The translations under genes were made by a program, and so were the position numbers. Below, one piece after another: positions 40,242-48,787 of a stretch of 64,000 nucleotides of DNA. Location of the stretch: contig NZ_LR215979.1 of assembly GCF_900683735.1 (NCBI RefSeq), forward strand, positions 62,001 to 126,000. Reading direction: 5' to 3'. The notes beneath the pieces were generated by a model, which ran no database searches, had not been told where the DNA came from, and saw nothing but the letters and a program-made list of their open reading frames with translations. The stretch comes from Fusobacterium ulcerans ATCC 49185. GTDB taxonomy: Bacteria > Fusobacteriota > Fusobacteriia > Fusobacteriales > Fusobacteriaceae. Each line of letters opens with the position of its first letter. Positions within the stretch are counted from its first letter, which is position 1.

Positions 40242-40520
40242 TTATATACTCAGATTTTTAGGCTGAATATACTTGAATACTTTTTTAGAAGGGAGTTCTA
40301 TCTTCTCACTTGTATAAATATTTTGTACTATTTTTCTTTTTTTATCTGTAAGAGTGAATTTGCCTTTGTTTTTTATTTTTAATTCATTATCCAGTATAAC
40401 AGCTTCAGCAATACTTTCTATCATCATTTTTATATCTTCTTCAGCTTCATTTAAATTTACTTCCTGATTTTTTAAGATGCTCAATTTTCTGTAATAGTGT
40501 AAAAATTCTTTACTATTCAT
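40242..40520 (-). CDS. Divergent HU/IHF-like protein
   Basis: A 92-aa protein. Residues about 30-90 follow the HU/IHF pattern (IAEAVILDNELKIKNKGKFTLTDKKRKIVQNIYTSEKIELPSKKVFKYIQPKNL), with the basic DNA-binding arm and the IP-kkv-fkp end. It is more diverged than a housekeeping HU. It overlaps the Wzz-like gene by 8 bases and is the last gene of the surface locus. Its partner may be the similar protein at the other end of the locus (46040-46360). Confidence 0.7.
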   Translation of the reverse strand: MNSKEFLHYYRKLSILKNQEVNLNEAEEDIKMMIESIAEAVILDNELKIKNKGKFTLTDKKRKIVQNIYTSEKIELPSKKVFKYIQPKNLSI

Positions 40521-41331
40521 AGTTTACCTCTATGTGTAATTTTCTTAAACTATATCTCTTCCAAAATTCACCTATTATAACAACAAGTATTCCTGTGATT
40601 ATTCCCCAAAAATTTATCAGTATAAATAGTGATAAAAAACTATTGTTTTTATACATAGATATAGAATCGATTACTACCATATTTTTATATTTTTTTTGAA
40701 GTTTCAACCCTGTAAGTATTTTTATTTGTTCCAAATATGCTTCAATAGTTTTTCTTAACTCTTCTGTTTTTGTAGAACTGGTACTATTTGTCATTTCTTG
40801 AGAAAAATGTTCAATATTCTCTAAAGCTTTTTTTTCCTCAGCGATAATTATTTTTTCTACTTTATCTGATATGTATTCTTCCATTTCAAAGAATATTTTA
40901 TCTTTTTCGTTAAATAAACTGTTTCCATCTAGGCTTTCAAGAAAATAAATGTCACTGCTTTCATTTCTTAAATTTCTTATTTCTATAGTATTAGAATTGT
41001 ATTGGTATTTTATTACATCTTCTGTAATTAAAATATTTCGCTGTACAGCAGATTTTTTTATATATTTTGATATATCTTCTATATCCAAATTAGGGAATGT
41101 AAGTCCAGATTTTTGAAATAATCTGTCTTCCAGAAATCTTTCTTTCTCTATATGAAATTCTATACTTAAAATATTTTTATTATTTTCATAATTTAAATAT
41201 GCTGTTATTATACTTGCAATAAATGCTGCAAGTATAATTGAAAGAAATATTTTCTTCCATTTAAAGAAAATGTGAACTATTTCATATATATTTATTTCAT
41301 TTTCTATTTCTTCAACTTCATCTTTCCTCAT
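40513..41331 (-). CDS. Wzz-like chain-length determinant family protein
   Basis: A 272-aa inner-membrane protein with a charged N-terminus, a membrane segment near residues 28-46 (KKIFLSIILAAFIASIITAYL), a coiled-coil-rich periplasmic part (about 50-230) and a second membrane segment near 232-255. This is the topology of Wzz/PCP proteins that set polysaccharide length. No polysaccharide polymerase genes are adjacent, so it may have another envelope role linked to the autotransporter. Confidence 0.65.
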   Translation of the reverse strand: MRKDEVEEIENEINIYEIVHIFFKWKKIFLSIILAAFIASIITAYLNYENNKNILSIEFHIEKERFLEDRLFQKSGLTFPNLDIEDISKYIKKSAVQRNILITEDVIKYQYNSNTIEIRNLRNESSDIYFLESLDGNSLFNEKDKIFFEMEEYISDKVEKIIIAEEKKALENIEHFSQEMTNSTSSTKTEELRKTIEAYLEQIKILTGLKLQKKYKNMVVIDSISMYKNNSFLSLFILINFWGIITGILVVIIGEFWKRYSLRKLHIEVNYE

Positions 41332-41339
41332 AAACTCCC

Positions 41340-41699
41340 CTATTCTTTAACTTTTACTCCATCTTTCCATTCTTCCTGAAGAATTACTTTTCCAGATTCA
41401 TCATATACTTTTATTATTCCATCTGCTTTTCCATCTTTGAATGTTCCTTCTATTTTAGGCTTTCCATCTTCATAATATTGAGTCTGCTTTCCATCTTGTT
41501 TTCCATTCTTCCAGCTGCTCTCCAGCATTTTCTTTCCATCTGGATATTTAGCTGTTACTTTTCCTGTAAATGGCTTTTCGGCTCCCTTTTCATAGAAAAC
41601 TCCACTTTTATTTTCCAATAGAGAAAGGTCTATTTCTTTTAAATTATTTCCACAGCTTATCATTAATAAGGATGCCATTAATATTAATATTTTTTTCAT
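41340..41699 (-). CDS. YwqK/MORN-repeat lipoprotein
   Basis: A 119-aa precursor with a signal peptide and lipobox ISCGNN (Cys near residue 16). Then three short repeats of the YwqK type (YPDGKKMLESSWKNGKQDG, YYEDGKPKIEGTFKDGKADG, YDESGKVILQEEWKDG). Such repeats are often called toxin-antitoxin YwqK antitoxins, but the lipid anchor and context suggest an envelope protein. AAAGGAG precedes the ATG. Confidence 0.8.
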   Translation of the reverse strand: MKKILILMASLLMISCGNNLKEIDLSLLENKSGVFYEKGAEKPFTGKVTAKYPDGKKMLESSWKNGKQDGKQTQYYEDGKPKIEGTFKDGKADGIIKVYDESGKVILQEEWKDGVKVKE

Positions 41700-41790: not shown

Positions 41791-44700
41791 TTAGAATTTG
41801 TATCCTGCTCCTAATGTAACTCCAATAGAATCTCTGTCTTCATCATCAAATTCATAAGACAATCCTCCATTGTAGAATACTCCATTTGTTAATTCAACAT
41901 CTGCCCCTATGTTAAGTTTTAAGCTGTTTTTCTCTAAGTTAGCTCCCTTAACTTTTGCAGTGCTTCCATCATTTCCTGCTCTGCTTATGAAGTTTACTTT
42001 GTAGTAGTCATCATCTTTTCCAGCTACATTAGTAGTGAAACTTGCTCCTGCCAGAAGATGCATTTTTCCTGTTTCAAGTGTTATTCCTTTTTTGATTTCC
42101 ACTCCTAACTCTACATCAGCCATAGTATCTTTAACTTCTTCCTGCTTCATTCTTCCATTATTGATAGAATCCTGTTGGAATCTAGTTACTGTCAATCTAG
42201 CTTTTGGTGAAAGTGTTAAGCTTTCTCCAAGTGCATAGTTGTATTTACCTTGAACATATCCACTTAAAGCTGTAGAATCAAATTTATCTTTTCCAATGAA
42301 GTTTTCAGCATCTACTCTATCTACCATATATCCCAACCCTGTAGTTAAGTCTATATTGTTGAATTTATCATTTCTATATAGTCCGAAGTAGAATGCGTCT
42401 CCATCAGCGCTTGCTCCATTTTTCATATCAAGGTCTTGTTTAGTTCCAGAGAATGCAAATCCTACTGATGAAGTATCAGTCAATCCATATTCCATTGCTC
42501 CTAACAATCCTGTGTTTTTAGTTTCTACTTTGTAATCTCTTAATGTACCTTCTCTATCATAATCAGTATTATTGAACAGGAATTTACCTTGAGCTGTAAA
42601 CTCTCCCTGTCTTGGTCTAACGTTTAGAGATAAAACTGCATCTTCATTCATTTTTAATGTATCTAAAGACATTTTTACAGTTTCAGAATAGATATTATTA
42701 GAGTAAAGATCATCTAGTTGAACTGCTCTTAAATCAATATCCTTTGATAATATGTCATGGATAGATTGAGTAGCAATATACATATTATTCAACTCTGCAT
42801 ATTTAAGTCCACTCTCTCCAAGCAAACCATTTTTATTAAACTGTGCATTCCATATTCCATCTGCTCCTTTTACTACATTGTAGTAAATATCACTATTAGC
42901 TACAACACTTCCATCTATTAAAAGATGAGCTCCTAAATTGAATGCAGTATTTTCTGTAAGAGTATTAGTCAGCAGAACTACTTTTCCATGTGCTGCATCA
43001 TTAGGAGAACTTCCATCTAGACTTTGAATACTAACATCAGCTACCTCAGAATTTTGAAGTACATTTTTACCATTTTCTCCTATTTCTACTCCCATATTTC
43101 CCTCAACAAGGTCTATTGAAGTTTGCTCATTTGTACTACTAGAAGCTTCTATTACAGAATCTGCCCCAAATGTAAGCATTCCATTATCAGTTACATTAAT
43201 CTCTTTTATATCAGTAACTGTACCATTTATTTTAGAATTTCCTTTAGCATTTAATGTTCCTTGTAAATTAGAACCACTAAGTTCTCCTTTTATATCAGCA
43301 TTTACTGTATAATTATCAAGGTTAACTATTCCATTACCTTCTAGCTTTATACCTACTCTGTCTGCTGATGTTGTGTATGTTGTTGTTTCTGGTGCTTGCA
43401 TATTCATTTCTCCATTAGAAAGCCCAAGAGTACCAGTAACGTCTACTACAATTGCAGCTTCTGTTACTGATGGTCCAGTTGCTGCTGTTATATTTCCTGA
43501 ATAGTTTAATGTTTTAGAATCTGTTACATTTACCTTTCCAGTTTCTGTGATGTTTATAATTCTATCTGAAGTAGAGTTATCAATTGTTACTGGATTTGTT
43601 CCATCTGGAGCTGTAGCTAATGTTCCTTCTAAATTAAGCTGTACATTTGATAAGTTATCAGTTGGATTTTCTGCTTTTAATACAAGGGAATTACTCTCTT
43701 TTACACTAAAAGCTCTATCTGCTTCTGATTGTTGAGCTAAAGCTACAGATAAATCTTCTATTGAATGTGACCCATCAAGTGCTGCAGCTGTAGTAAAGTA
43801 TTTTCCATCACTAAACTTGATGTATCCAACACTTGAGAAACTTCCATTTGAATCACTAGCTATTACATGCATAGTTTTTAACGCTGTTTCTACTTGGACT
43901 AGAGTTAAATCCTCTAAACTAGATGCACCAGCTTCCCCTAAAAAGGCATCTGAACTTATAGCTAAATCAATAGTTCCATAGTTTGCTACATTTACTGCTG
44001 CCCCTGATGAAATATGTGAACTGTTATCAGGTGTCGCTGTATCAACTGCTTTTAATGTAATTAATCCCTGGTTAGTAAGAGATATAGTATTAGAATTATT
44101 ACCCACAACTAATTTTCCAGTTCCTGCTATTGTTACAGTTCCTGTATTTTTAACTGAAGCTACATTATCAGCATTAACACTTGATAAGTCTAGAGCTGTT
44201 TTTCCTGTTTTTACAGTTAGTCCATCCACTCCTTCTACATTAAGATTTACATTTAAGTGTCCAGCTGTCATAGCTCCTGCTTTAACTATATTTCCATTTC
44301 CTGTAATGTCAACATTTTTATTAATATTTACAGTTGCTGTTCCTGCAGCAAGAGCTCCTACATCAACTAAGCTTCCATCTACAACTTTTTGGTCATCAGC
44401 ATTTAAAACTACATTTACATTTCCAGCTATTGTACCTATATTTACCAAGTTGGCTCCAGATAGTAAGTCAACACTTTTATTGACATTTATATTTACTTCT
44501 CCAGCTGTACTATTAGCTACATTTACTAATTTTTTTGTATCAGTTACTTGAAGATTGCTTTGGTTTACATTTACTGTAATAATTCCATCTGCTTTTCCAG
44601 CTGTTATATTTACTCCTGTTCCAGATACTTCTGCTTTAGCAACTTTAATATTAGCAGGGGCAGGTTGTGCATTTTCAAGATTTACTGTAATATTATTATT

Positions 44701-45987
44701 TTTTTCTCCTGCTACTGTTACCCCTGTTCCTGCTGTTGCTCCTAATGTAGTTTTTACAGCTGCAGTAGTAGTACCTGCACCTAAATTTTGTCCAGTTATT
44801 GCAATACCAGTAGCATTAGCATTCCCTGTTGAAATACTTCCAGTTGTGATATCAAGAGTACTCTTATCTACAGTTGATATAGCTGCAGTTATTCCAGTAG
44901 CACCAGCATTTTCAACAGATATATCCTTTGTTGATATATTAGCTGTTACTGCTCCAACAGTTCCTCCAGTATACTCAATACCTGTTCCTGCACCATTTAA
45001 AGTGATAGCTATATCTTCAAGTGTTACATTTCCTACAGCATTAATTCCTTTTCCTGTTCCATTTATTTCAATACTTCCATCAGTTATTGTTGTAGTTCCT
45101 GTTCCCTCAACTTTTATTCCAGTTTTCCCATCTGCTACTGTTATTTTTCCAGCTTCTACCTTAACTTTTCCTGCTCCCTCAACTTTTATTCCTACTCCAT
45201 CTGTTACATCAATTGTTCCTTTATTTATTAAGACGGCTTCTGCTCCCTCTAATAATTCTCCAGTTGCCATACCTATACCTTTTGTTACTGTAATTGTTCC
45301 ATCATTTGTTAGAGTAGTAGTTTTATCAACTGCTGTATCAGCTAACATACCTATGCTTGTATCAGCGTTTTCACCATTAGAATTTACTGTAATTATCTTG
45401 CCGGCATTATTTACAGCTGCCGCTCCTGCTCCTGCTGATAATCCAACAGCAAACTTATTAACTGTAATTGCTCCATTATTTGTTACTGTATCTTCTGCTC
45501 CTGCAGCTTTCATTGCTGTTGCTTTATTGCTTGCATTAAATCCAACAGCCTCAATTTCTAAGCTGCTTGCTATAGATTTATGGTCACTATCTGTTTTTAA
45601 AAGTGTAATTGCTCCATCATTTGTTGCTGTTGCAGTAACTTTTCCTAATGTATTTGATTGACCTTCTGCTCCAGCAAAAATTGTTTCTCCCTTTTCATTA
45701 GTTGTTACTGTTAATAAATTCTCAAGAGCTCCACCTTTTCCTGCCAATTTCTCATACTGTGCTACAGAGATGGAATCTGTAGCTCCTGATACATCGGATG
45801 CTCCACCACTATCAACATTAATTGTTACTTTTGGACCATTAGCTGTTGTAAACTCTACAGGTTTTGTAGCCCCAAATGCTACTGTTCCTGCTATTAAGAA
45901 CCCTACCACTGTTGCTGCTGTTATTGATACTTTTTCCTTTAGACATCTCTTTAGAGATTTCTCTACTTCACTAAAATTGCTAATCAT
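41791..45987 (-). CDS. Type Va autotransporter adhesin-like outer-membrane protein
   Basis: A 1398-aa precursor. The N-terminal MISNFSEVEKSLKRCLKEKVS is followed by a hydrophobic signal segment (VVGFLIAGTVAFG), the extended form common in Fusobacterium autotransporters. The passenger (about 40-1080) is a Gly/Thr/Val/Asn-rich beta-helix with many GTG and N-G-T-I-T-V turns. The last 280 residues form the translocating barrel, ending GVTLGAGYKF. Passengers act as adhesins or enzymes; no protease motif is obvious. ATG 45987 follows GGGAGG by 10 bases; an upstream ATG at 46005 precedes that site. Confidence 0.92.
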   Translation of the reverse strand: MISNFSEVEKSLKRCLKEKVSITAATVVGFLIAGTVAFGATKPVEFTTANGPKVTINVDSGGASDVSGATDSISVAQYEKLAGKGGALENLLTVTTNEKGETIFAGAEGQSNTLGKVTATATNDGAITLLKTDSDHKSIASSLEIEAVGFNASNKATAMKAAGAEDTVTNNGAITVNKFAVGLSAGAGAAAVNNAGKIITVNSNGENADTSIGMLADTAVDKTTTLTNDGTITVTKGIGMATGELLEGAEAVLINKGTIDVTDGVGIKVEGAGKVKVEAGKITVADGKTGIKVEGTGTTTITDGSIEINGTGKGINAVGNVTLEDIAITLNGAGTGIEYTGGTVGAVTANISTKDISVENAGATGITAAISTVDKSTLDITTGSISTGNANATGIAITGQNLGAGTTTAAVKTTLGATAGTGVTVAGEKNNNITVNLENAQPAPANIKVAKAEVSGTGVNITAGKADGIITVNVNQSNLQVTDTKKLVNVANSTAGEVNINVNKSVDLLSGANLVNIGTIAGNVNVVLNADDQKVVDGSLVDVGALAAGTATVNINKNVDITGNGNIVKAGAMTAGHLNVNLNVEGVDGLTVKTGKTALDLSSVNADNVASVKNTGTVTIAGTGKLVVGNNSNTISLTNQGLITLKAVDTATPDNSSHISSGAAVNVANYGTIDLAISSDAFLGEAGASSLEDLTLVQVETALKTMHVIASDSNGSFSSVGYIKFSDGKYFTTAAALDGSHSIEDLSVALAQQSEADRAFSVKESNSLVLKAENPTDNLSNVQLNLEGTLATAPDGTNPVTIDNSTSDRIINITETGKVNVTDSKTLNYSGNITAATGPSVTEAAIVVDVTGTLGLSNGEMNMQAPETTTYTTSADRVGIKLEGNGIVNLDNYTVNADIKGELSGSNLQGTLNAKGNSKINGTVTDIKEINVTDNGMLTFGADSVIEASSSTNEQTSIDLVEGNMGVEIGENGKNVLQNSEVADVSIQSLDGSSPNDAAHGKVVLLTNTLTENTAFNLGAHLLIDGSVVANSDIYYNVVKGADGIWNAQFNKNGLLGESGLKYAELNNMYIATQSIHDILSKDIDLRAVQLDDLYSNNIYSETVKMSLDTLKMNEDAVLSLNVRPRQGEFTAQGKFLFNNTDYDREGTLRDYKVETKNTGLLGAMEYGLTDTSSVGFAFSGTKQDLDMKNGASADGDAFYFGLYRNDKFNNIDLTTGLGYMVDRVDAENFIGKDKFDSTALSGYVQGKYNYALGESLTLSPKARLTVTRFQQDSINNGRMKQEEVKDTMADVELGVEIKKGITLETGKMHLLAGASFTTNVAGKDDDYYKVNFISRAGNDGSTAKVKGANLEKNSLKLNIGADVELTNGVFYNGGLSYEFDDEDRDSIGVTLGAGYKF

Positions 45988-46039
45988 AACTATTTTTCCT
46001 CCCATTGTTTTATTTTAACTGCTCTTTTTCCAGACTACT

Positions 46040-46360
46040 TTACTTTATCCCAGTTTCATCTGTTAAGCTGCAGCTATTTACTTTTTTACTTAGCTTTTTC
46101 ATAAACCCGTTTTTTACCTTGAACTTCAATGCCGTCCTTTCCTTTGTCATAAACAAAATATTTTTATGAATATCATATATCTTTCTTGGCTTGAGCTTTT
46201 TTAATTCAAATACTCCAAAATCTTTTACTATTACTTTTTTGTCTTGTGCAAGTCCTGCAAAAACTGCTTCCCAAAAAAATTCTAATTTTTTCTTTGATTC
46301 TTTTATGCTTTTTAATTTTCTCTTCTTCTTGTATAATTTTAGAAATTCGATCTCTGTCAT
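46040..46360 (-). CDS. HU/IHF-like DNA-binding protein, first gene of surface locus
   Basis: A 106-aa basic protein. The middle (AVFAGLAQDKKVIVKDFGVFELKKLKPRKIYDIHKN) matches the HU/IHF turn (kxxGFGxFexxxr) and the end has a FKVKNGFMKKL strand. It directly precedes the autotransporter gene and lies 42 bases downstream of the left inverted repeat at 46402. In many phase-variable loci the first gene is a regulator; here it could bend DNA at the invertible segment, an inference. Confidence 0.7.
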   Translation of the reverse strand: MTEIEFLKLYKKKRKLKSIKESKKKLEFFWEAVFAGLAQDKKVIVKDFGVFELKKLKPRKIYDIHKNILFMTKERTALKFKVKNGFMKKLSKKVNSCSLTDETGIK

Positions 46361-46401: not shown

Positions 46402-46427
46402 GTTCTTGTTTATGTATAAATACGAAC
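46402..46427 (+). repeat. Left 26-bp inverted repeat of putative invertible segment
   Basis: Begins GTTCTTGTTTATG and ends AATACGAAC. It is the exact reverse complement of 46600-46625 over all 26 bases, in a region with otherwise random AT-rich sequence. The arm itself is an imperfect dyad (GTTC...GAAC), as expected of a site-specific recombinase core. Matching stops at both edges. Confidence 0.9.
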
Positions 46428-46599
46428 TTTTTAAATTTTTTTTATTTTTTTTAAAATCATCTTAAATACAAAATTTAACTTACATTTTTTTAAAAGTTCA
46501 ATGTTTTTAAAAAAATAAAAATTGATTATTTTGGTTTTTTATGGTATATATAATTGATAGGAGTAAAGATTGTTTTAGATAGTTACAAATTCTGAAAGT
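46428..46599. promoter_or_regulatory. 172-bp putative invertible promoter segment
   Basis: Non-coding, enclosed by the 26-bp inverted repeat. It holds one good sigma70-like promoter on the + strand (TTGATT 46522-46527, 17 bases, TATATAAT from 46545). That promoter reads away from the autotransporter operon. After inversion the same promoter would lie at about 46473-46505 on the minus strand and read straight into the HU-like and autotransporter genes. Only a weak minus-strand candidate (TTGAAC, 17, TTAAAT) exists in the present state. Confidence 0.75.
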
Positions 46600-46625
46600 G
46601 TTCGTATTTATACATAAACAAGAAC
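46600..46625 (-). repeat. Right 26-bp inverted repeat of putative invertible segment
   Basis: Begins GTTCGTATTTATAC and ends AACAAGAAC, perfect inverted copy of 46402-46427. Outside it the DNA is AT-rich with no gene until 46861, and no recombinase gene is next to it. Confidence 0.9.
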
Positions 46626-46860: not shown

Positions 46861-47100
46861 TTATTCCAGAAGAAAAATCAGGCTTTTTGTGTAGATTACA
46901 ATACTTGCTCCCATTTTTTTGTGAATAATATCTCCCCCTTCAACTTTGTCATAAATAGTATTTCTGTGTTTGTTGAAATATTCTGCTGTCTTCTTCACTG
47001 TAGTCCATTCTCCCAGATTCTCTACCATTTCATCTGCCAGTGCCTTATCTATTGCTGAAAGACTTCCTAGCTTCTTAAAAATATATTCTTCCCTCTCCAT
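46861..47100 (-). CDS. Small HTH DNA-binding protein (excisionase-like)
   Basis: A 79-aa protein. Residues about 30-60 (EWTTVKKTAEYFNKHRNTIYDKVEGGDI) form a MerR/excisionase-type helix-turn-helix with a short wing. AAAGGAG precedes the ATG. It follows the DnaC-like gene and is probably co-transcribed with it. A role as excisionase or replication regulator of a mobile element fits, but no integrase is seen in the window. Confidence 0.65.
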   Translation of the reverse strand: MEREEYIFKKLGSLSAIDKALADEMVENLGEWTTVKKTAEYFNKHRNTIYDKVEGGDIIHKKMGASIVIYTKSLIFLLE

Positions 47101-47124
47101 ATGTAATTCTCCTTTTTTATTTTT

Positions 47125-47931
47125 TTAAGATATAAATTCAAAGAACTTCTGTTTTGTCATTCCCCTTCTGCTTTTCCCTGTTACCTGTACAGGAAAGCAC
47201 ATATCAATTATCCTATCTCTTATCCTATTCTGCCCCTGTGTTGAAAACTTTTCACTTATCTCGCATTTTTCCTCATCTTCGTTGAAATTTAAATTTGTAG
47301 AAATTATCAAAGGCTTCTCGCTTCTGTATCTTGTATCAATGAGATTATATATTTTCTCTGCTCTCCATCCAGTATTATTTCTATCCAGCCCCTTTTCCCC
47401 TCCAAAGTCGTCTATCACTAGCAAATCGCATTTTTCCACCTGCTCCAGAATATTCATCTCTGCTTCTGCCCACTGGAGTGTGAGCTTATTGAGATACAGC
47501 CCTAAATTCATTACCAGTACTGTTTTTCCCCTTTCCATGAGATAGTTGACTATACAGGCAGTGGTAAAAGTCTTTCCTGTTCCTATTCCTCCATAAAACA
47601 ACAATCCCTCCTGTTCATCTTTTTTCAGAAAACTTTTCACATATTTCTGTGCCAGCTGCATCTGCTGGTTGTCCATATCAGCATTTTTAAAAGTGCTTTT
47701 TATAAATCTGCTGTCCATAACAGAAATATCCTTAAATTTCTTCACTTTGTTTATCATACATTCCTGAACTCTTTTTCTTTCCATTTCCTCCATTTCTCTT
47801 TTTTCCTCCTCTTCCAGACAGGGACAGGCAGGTATGTATTCTAATTTTTTTCTGAAAAATTCAGGAAGATTTTTAAGATAACTATCCTCATTCTTTACAT
47901 ACTCTTTCCCGCAATACTTACATTTCTTCAT
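47125..47931 (-). CDS. DnaC/IstB-like helicase loader ATPase (phage-type)
   Basis: A 268-aa AAA+ protein. A zinc-ribbon-like CKYCGKEY...CPCL starts it; Walker A is FYGGIGTGKTFTT near residue 108, Walker B is LLVIDDFGGEKG near residue 170, and the sensor region RIRDRIIDMCFPVQVTGKSRRG lies at the end. It loads a replicative helicase in phage and plasmid replication modules. ATG 47931 sits 7 bases after GAGGAG; the ATG at 47937 is too near. It overlaps the initiator gene upstream. Confidence 0.85.
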   Translation of the reverse strand: MKKCKYCGKEYVKNEDSYLKNLPEFFRKKLEYIPACPCLEEEEKREMEEMERKRVQECMINKVKKFKDISVMDSRFIKSTFKNADMDNQQMQLAQKYVKSFLKKDEQEGLLFYGGIGTGKTFTTACIVNYLMERGKTVLVMNLGLYLNKLTLQWAEAEMNILEQVEKCDLLVIDDFGGEKGLDRNNTGWRAEKIYNLIDTRYRSEKPLIISTNLNFNEDEEKCEISEKFSTQGQNRIRDRIIDMCFPVQVTGKSRRGMTKQKFFEFIS

Positions 47932-48787
47932 TTTCATTCTCCTCTAATGCTCCATTTAGAATACTGTTAATAAAATCTCCTGTAAAATCTTCGTACTCTG
48001 GTTTTTTAAATTTTTTCATAGGATTATTTTTCTCTGCATTCATCTTTCTTTTGTCTTTGAAATTTCCATTAAGAGCCTTTTTTAGATTATCTATTTTGAA
48101 AATACTGTTGATGCTCATACTGTTTTTAACAAACTGGGATTTGGACATCTCTGTCAGTGCTTCAAACAGCTTTAAAGTTCCTAACTCCCTCCATACTTTC
48201 AAAATCACATAGTTATCTGGACAATAGTTATATGCAGGTAATTTCAGCTCTTTATATTTTTTTAATATATCCTGTATCTCCACAGGAGCATTACTTGATT
48301 TTTCTTTCTCAATTTCTTCTTCATGTTTTAGATTATCAACTGCTTTTTCTTCTGCCCTTGTGTGTGTATTATTTATATTTTTATCTTTTATGTTATTATT
48401 AATACTGTTATTATTAGTTTCTCCCTGACCGTGTCCGATAAAATCCGTATCGGTTTTTGCCGTGTCCGGTGAAACTATACATTGGTTGATGTTTACAGTA
48501 TATAGATTTTGTGCAAACTTCCCCTTTTCTTTGTGCTGTATCACTGTTACATACCCTCTGTCTTTTAATTCTCTGACATATTTTATCAATGTGTCTTTGC
48601 CTATTCCCAAATCTCCGCATATTAAATTTTGTGATGGAAAAGCATTTTTTCCTTTTCCAGTGTAGCTGCATATATAGGCATATACAGCTTTAGATAAAAC
48701 ATTTAAATCTCTGTCCCTCATCACTTTTTTTGCTATAAATCCATATCCTTCTTTAAATATTCCCTGTCCTTTAATTTTCTCCGTCAT
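47918..48787 (-). CDS. Phage-type replication initiator (helix-turn-helix, DnaD-like)
   Basis: A 289-aa protein. The N-terminal winged helix (residues about 20-100: KVMRDRDLNVLSKAVYAYICSYTG, then GIGKDTLIKYVRELKDRGYV) is typical of phage replication organisers. The middle is Asn/Lys-rich and disordered and the C-terminal part helical. Paired with a DnaC-like gene downstream it makes a two-gene replication module. The ribosome site AAAGGAGAGAAG precedes the ATG. Confidence 0.8.
   Translation of the reverse strand: MTEKIKGQGIFKEGYGFIAKKVMRDRDLNVLSKAVYAYICSYTGKGKNAFPSQNLICGDLGIGKDTLIKYVRELKDRGYVTVIQHKEKGKFAQNLYTVNINQCIVSPDTAKTDTDFIGHGQGETNNNSINNNIKDKNINNTHTRAEEKAVDNLKHEEEIEKEKSSNAPVEIQDILKKYKELKLPAYNYCPDNYVILKVWRELGTLKLFEALTEMSKSQFVKNSMSINSIFKIDNLKKALNGNFKDKRKMNAEKNNPMKKFKKPEYEDFTGDFINSILNGALEENENEEM

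Follow-up and report, generated by a model that had tools for sequence, protein, structure and literature searches.

The 172-bp segment at positions 46428 to 46599 (plus strand) of the window, a 64,000-nucleotide stretch of the chromosome of Fusobacterium ulcerans ATCC 49185, is very probably a phase switch worked by a tyrosine recombinase that is encoded elsewhere in the genome and shared by at least 30 switches. Flipping of the segment probably turns a surface adhesin and its neighbouring genes on or off.

The segment is enclosed by a perfect 26-bp inverted repeat, with its left arm at 46402-46427 (plus strand) and its right arm, the exact reverse complement of the left, at 46600-46625 (minus strand), so that the whole structure spans 224 bp; with an extension, the repeat reaches 31 nt at 94% identity. 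This is the longest perfect inverted repeat in the window with arms up to 400 bp apart, and in 60 first-order shuffles of the window the longest was 17 bp or less; arms of 26 bp at this locus are far beyond chance. The left arm reads GTTCTTGTTT-ATGTAT-AAATACGAAC, and each arm is itself an imperfect dyad of the form GTTCNNNTTT-6 bp-AAANNNGAAC. No credible gene was found inside the 172-bp segment. The perfect repeat, the dyad arms and the non-coding interior had been described in an earlier note made from the letters of the window, and all three descriptions hold.

To the left of the segment lies a minus-strand operon that starts 42 bp from the left arm. Its first gene encodes an HU/IHF-like protein (46040-46360; PF00216, E 2e-7) and its second an autotransporter of the type V secretion kind (41791-46005; PF03797, E 3e-21), which is 1404 aa long from the first ATG and 1398 aa from the MISNF start. 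These are followed, on the same strand, by a MORN-repeat protein that is probably exported (41340-41699; PF07661), a 272-aa protein with membrane segments and no Pfam match (40513-41331), and a second HU/IHF-like protein (40242-40520; PF00216, E 2e-9), the last gene of the operon, after which inspection of the sequence reveals a terminator-like hairpin and T run. The operon start, the HU-like gene and the 1398-aa autotransporter had been described in the earlier note, and these descriptions hold. The N-terminus of the 272-aa protein is similar to genes in two related genomes (G026:165899 and G027:885563), and by eye the protein resembles chain-length-regulator-like proteins that adjoin other switches.

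A sigma70-like promoter had been predicted within the segment, pointing right, away from the operon. A promoter-like sequence does point in this direction (TTGATT-17-TATATA with TGG before the -10, at 46522-46550 on the plus strand), and in a comparison of six homologous switches no other 32-bp stretch is conserved as well as its block (81% of positions invariant; median, 62%). By consensus it is a weak promoter, agreeing at just 8 of 12 positions, and it goes unranked in a generic promoter scan; a TATAAT is present, but at 19-nt spacing. Near-consensus promoters are found within most segments of the arm family. The predicted promoter is presumably active.

The arm recurs throughout the 3,839,419-bp chromosome, where the earlier note had proposed searching for further copies. 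A profile scan of genome regions gave 26 paired loci, all inverted and 141-231 bp apart, and a further class with the core ATTACAAT contributes four more loci, giving at least 30 switches in the window genome; in the first arm search of the genome, a reversed-pattern control gave zero matches. Of 98 Fusobacteriota genomes, no more than four have the family in abundance: the window genome (G000), G026, G027 and G028, the last being F. varium Fv113-g1, for which we list 18 switches. These four genomes together contain 81 arm pairs, with the ATTACAAT class counted additionally. The arm pattern had no match in the viral collection, and no arms were found in two examined F. varium plasmid stretches. 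The genes downstream of the switches encode mostly autotransporters, HU-like pairs, outer-membrane proteins and initiating sugar transferases (PF02397), and in the relatives an MBOAT acyltransferase is also found downstream of a switch.

Loci L281-L286 have switches of the ATTACAAT class before HU-like genes and initiating sugar transferases (PF02397), a layout that suggests phase-variable polysaccharide. At L076 (~8173), L114 (~4473) and L120 (~3499), one arm has decayed into a GC-richer hairpin with a T run behind it (GGGCGCC...AAAGGCGGCTTTTTTT), which may be a terminator directed towards the interior. A replication-like module, consisting of an HTH_36 initiator, an IstB/DnaC-like ATPase and a small HTH protein, is situated upstream of many switches (46861-48787 in the window, and in L066, L068, L072, L073, L050 and L080), which gives the impression that the autotransporter cassettes move together with an element of plasmid or phage origin. 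In a more distant genus-mate, G029, at least one arm pair encloses a promoter (L095:1501-1690).

The central positions of the arms bear on the type of recombinase. Positions 11-16 are identical within 73 of the 74 strong pairs from the four genomes, a figure that is not to be over-read, the paralogous loci being non-independent; when arms were re-dealt within each genome in a permutation, the mean number of identical cores was 36.8 and the maximum 48. The cores vary between loci (ATGTAT, ATCTAT, ATATAA, GTATAT, GTGTAT and others), and at the positions flanking the core the two arms differ about as often as by chance. Tyrosine recombinases need an identical spacer of 6-8 bp between two binding elements, and serine recombinases constrain 2 bp. 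A constrained block of 6 bp between two binding elements thus points to a tyrosine recombinase, and the central ATGTAT of the window arms (46412-46417 on the plus strand, 46610-46615 on the minus strand) would be the region of strand exchange. A serine invertase of the Hin, Gin or Mpi type, for which each arm would be a hix-like 26-bp dyad with a central GT, is compatible with the length and dyad symmetry of the arms, but the identity constraint between arms covers the 6 bp of positions 11-16 and not 2, the central AT is palindromic at several loci, and the sole serine recombinase of the genome (PF00239) is a 468-aa protein of the large type situated among phage-like genes. We rejected this reading, which is highly improbable, because of the 6-bp constraint and because PF00239 finds no small serine recombinase in the genome. 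The sole strong pair with unlike cores (ATACAT and ATCTAT; G027:C1:1564473, L184:8774-8950) is possibly a locked switch. In eight G028 copies, half-site shuffling was considered as a footprint of crossover and dropped, as all eight interiors have the same orientation.

To look for inversion, we compared the interiors and 600-bp flanks of all loci in the four genomes. The direction of interior and flanks agrees in 385 of 408 homologous comparisons and disagrees in 23. When the window locus is aligned with its homologue G026:C1:2099442, the two flanks align in reverse orientation (84% over 588 bp and 73% over 264 bp) and the interior in forward orientation (80% over 172 bp, E 3e-39). The earlier note had taken the locus to be phase-variable and had proposed a comparison of orientation among strains; the opposite orientation in G026 supports that view. 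Within the window genome, the locus at 3783353 is inverted relative to three paralogues with flanks 92-98% identical, and that at 958543 is inverted relative to a six-member group. In a single genome, G026, loci L285 and L286 have interiors that are 95.8% identical and opposite to their flanks, and two syntenic sugar-transferase loci with the same neighbours, G000:2742278 and G026:913030, have opposite interiors. We read such opposed interiors as traces that site-specific inversion has left in the course of evolution. Both orientations are seen when homologous loci of relatives are compared, and also inside the G026 genome; switching presumably takes place in present-day cells as well. Were the arms paired operators at which a regulator, perhaps the HU-like proteins themselves, binds DNA, and the segment static, their dyad form and the association of HU-like genes with many loci would be accounted for, but the inverted interiors between homologues and the strict identity of the central 6 bp would be left unexplained, and we hold this to be so improbable as to be scarcely credible.

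The conserved promoter-like block faces away from the operon in the window genome and faces it in G026; the window assembly is therefore best read as OFF, as the earlier note had proposed, and the G026 homologue would be ON. Scored by promoter orientation, 62 loci of the family are OFF and 7 are ON, at least two of the ON calls being doubtful. It could be that inversion belongs to the past and that the window copy is now locked OFF, for example through host-gene loss or selection in culture. That about nine-tenths of the scored loci are OFF is in keeping with this, as is the locus at G000:C1:3783353 (L050:7954-8199), whose orientation is ON when compared with its paralogues but whose promoter hexamers have decayed. 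However, the arms of the window locus are perfect, its promoter block is conserved and the recombinase genes are intact, and we consider a locked state improbable.

The working switch that we favour requires a recombinase acting in trans. The earlier note had seen no recombinase gene adjacent to the repeat, and indeed there is no serine or tyrosine recombinase match within the window; the search for an unlinked enzyme that it had proposed led to two 198-aa tyrosine recombinases (PF00589) elsewhere in the genome, P0001 (992076-992672) and P0002 (1678061-1678657). Both genes are intact, their products have all of the catalytic residues (R44, K68, H146, R149, H172 and Y181) and no N-terminal binding domain, and both lie near HU-like gene pairs. 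NCBIfam models gave only sub-threshold Xer-type matches and none to the FimB/FimE model. Relatives of P0001 at 73% identity or more are found only in the four arm-bearing genomes, which are close relatives, making the co-occurrence in effect one event. In G028 the recombinases are on two smaller contigs, with coordinates that coincide with plasmids AP017969 and AP017970. A search of the named genome collection with P0001 alone returned nothing, and with an alignment only more distant relatives; nothing convincing was found in a search for inverted repeats of other sequence beside these more distant relatives. P0001 and P0002 are the best candidates for working the switches.

A third protein of similar size, P0003 (189 aa, PF00589), adjoins a canonical HU gene and is found in all four arm-bearing genomes and in most genus-mates. 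It is unlikely, if worth keeping in view, that the switch is real and is worked by P0003 or an Xer-type recombinase instead of P0001 or P0002. G029 would favour this, as it has a paired arm and 15 HU-like genes, lacks a close P0001 relative, and has the P0003 orthologue as its best match to P0001. On the other hand, P0003 is kept in at least six genus-mates without the arm family, and P0001 relatives above the 73% level accompany only the arm family.

The HU/IHF-like genes have themselves multiplied. The four arm-bearing genomes have 56, 55, 48 and 58 PF00216 matches; elsewhere in the genus, most genomes have 4, and two have 7 and 15, the latter being G029. Of the 26 switches in the window genome, 12 have HU-like genes within 6 kb, and these genes number 22. 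In the fim switch of Escherichia coli, FimB and FimE invert the promoter with IHF as a cofactor, and this analogy suggests that the HU-like proteins may take part in inversion. As HU/IHF-like genes have multiplied with the switches and each switched operon makes an HU-like pair, one can go further and imagine that these locus-encoded pairs bind their own switch and set the direction or rate of its inversion, so that an operon that is ON would control its own return to OFF, within a self-tuned, distributed network in which the differing 6-bp cores limit exchange between unlike loci. We offer this as an improbable speculation.

In the mechanism that we propose, the unlinked tyrosine recombinase would bind both halves of each 26-bp arm, and strand exchange inside the central 6 bp would invert the 172-bp interior. 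In the ON state, the promoter would read left into the genes for the HU-like protein, the autotransporter, the MORN protein, the membrane protein and the second HU-like protein; in the OFF state, as in this assembly, it would read right and so away from these genes. At least 30 switches would be served by the same recombinase or recombinases, and cells would therefore differ in the set of surface proteins and polysaccharide enzymes that they display.

The fusobacteria, a group with links to colitis and colorectal cancer, have autotransporter adhesins as their hallmark surface proteins. If most autotransporters sit behind switches that rest OFF, gene content says little about what is displayed at the surface; a single assembly would be one state among many, and expression studies would need to track orientation. 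With the arm sequence and the four genomes in hand, these predictions are testable at once on reads that are already public; for F. varium Fv113-g1 these are DNA reads (DRA005489) and RNA-seq (DRA005507). In F. varium Fv113-g1, RNA-seq of 44 autotransporters found few to be clearly induced, and inversion was unmentioned (PMC5720691). The freely accessible literature that we searched contained no account of invertible promoters in Fusobacterium.

The likeness to fim lies in promoter inversion, in small recombinases that are about 200 aa long and lack an N-terminal arm-binding domain, and in the involvement of an IHF/HU-type protein in E. coli; the sites are unlike, and the candidates described here showed no match to a FimB/FimE model. 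Bacteroides fragilis, with its Mpi and Tsr systems, has a global invertase that inverts many promoters, both of surface polysaccharides and of other surface genes. However, Mpi belongs to the serine recombinases, whereas the sites described here fit a tyrosine recombinase and the targets are mostly autotransporters. The closest working parallels are RecV of Clostridioides difficile and ipuS of uropathogenic E. coli. RecV is a single recombinase needed for several dispersed switches of surface structures (PMC7446863), as proposed here, but with fewer loci, a flagellar switch that acts after transcription start and no reported HU-like expansion. At ipuS, tyrosine recombinases flip a promoter-bearing segment, about 260 bp long, before the operon of the autotransporter UpaE (PMC6083910); promoter flipping before an autotransporter operon and recombinases common to several switches would be shared with the Fusobacterium loci, but ipuS serves one autotransporter operon, has 7-bp repeats and has its recombinases close to the switch (PMC6083910). 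The Fusobacterium system, in contrast, has at least 30 loci, 26-bp arms, unlinked candidate recombinases and HU-like genes within the switched operons. The mechanism is of a known kind, and what is new is its scale, its host group and its link to HU-like genes.
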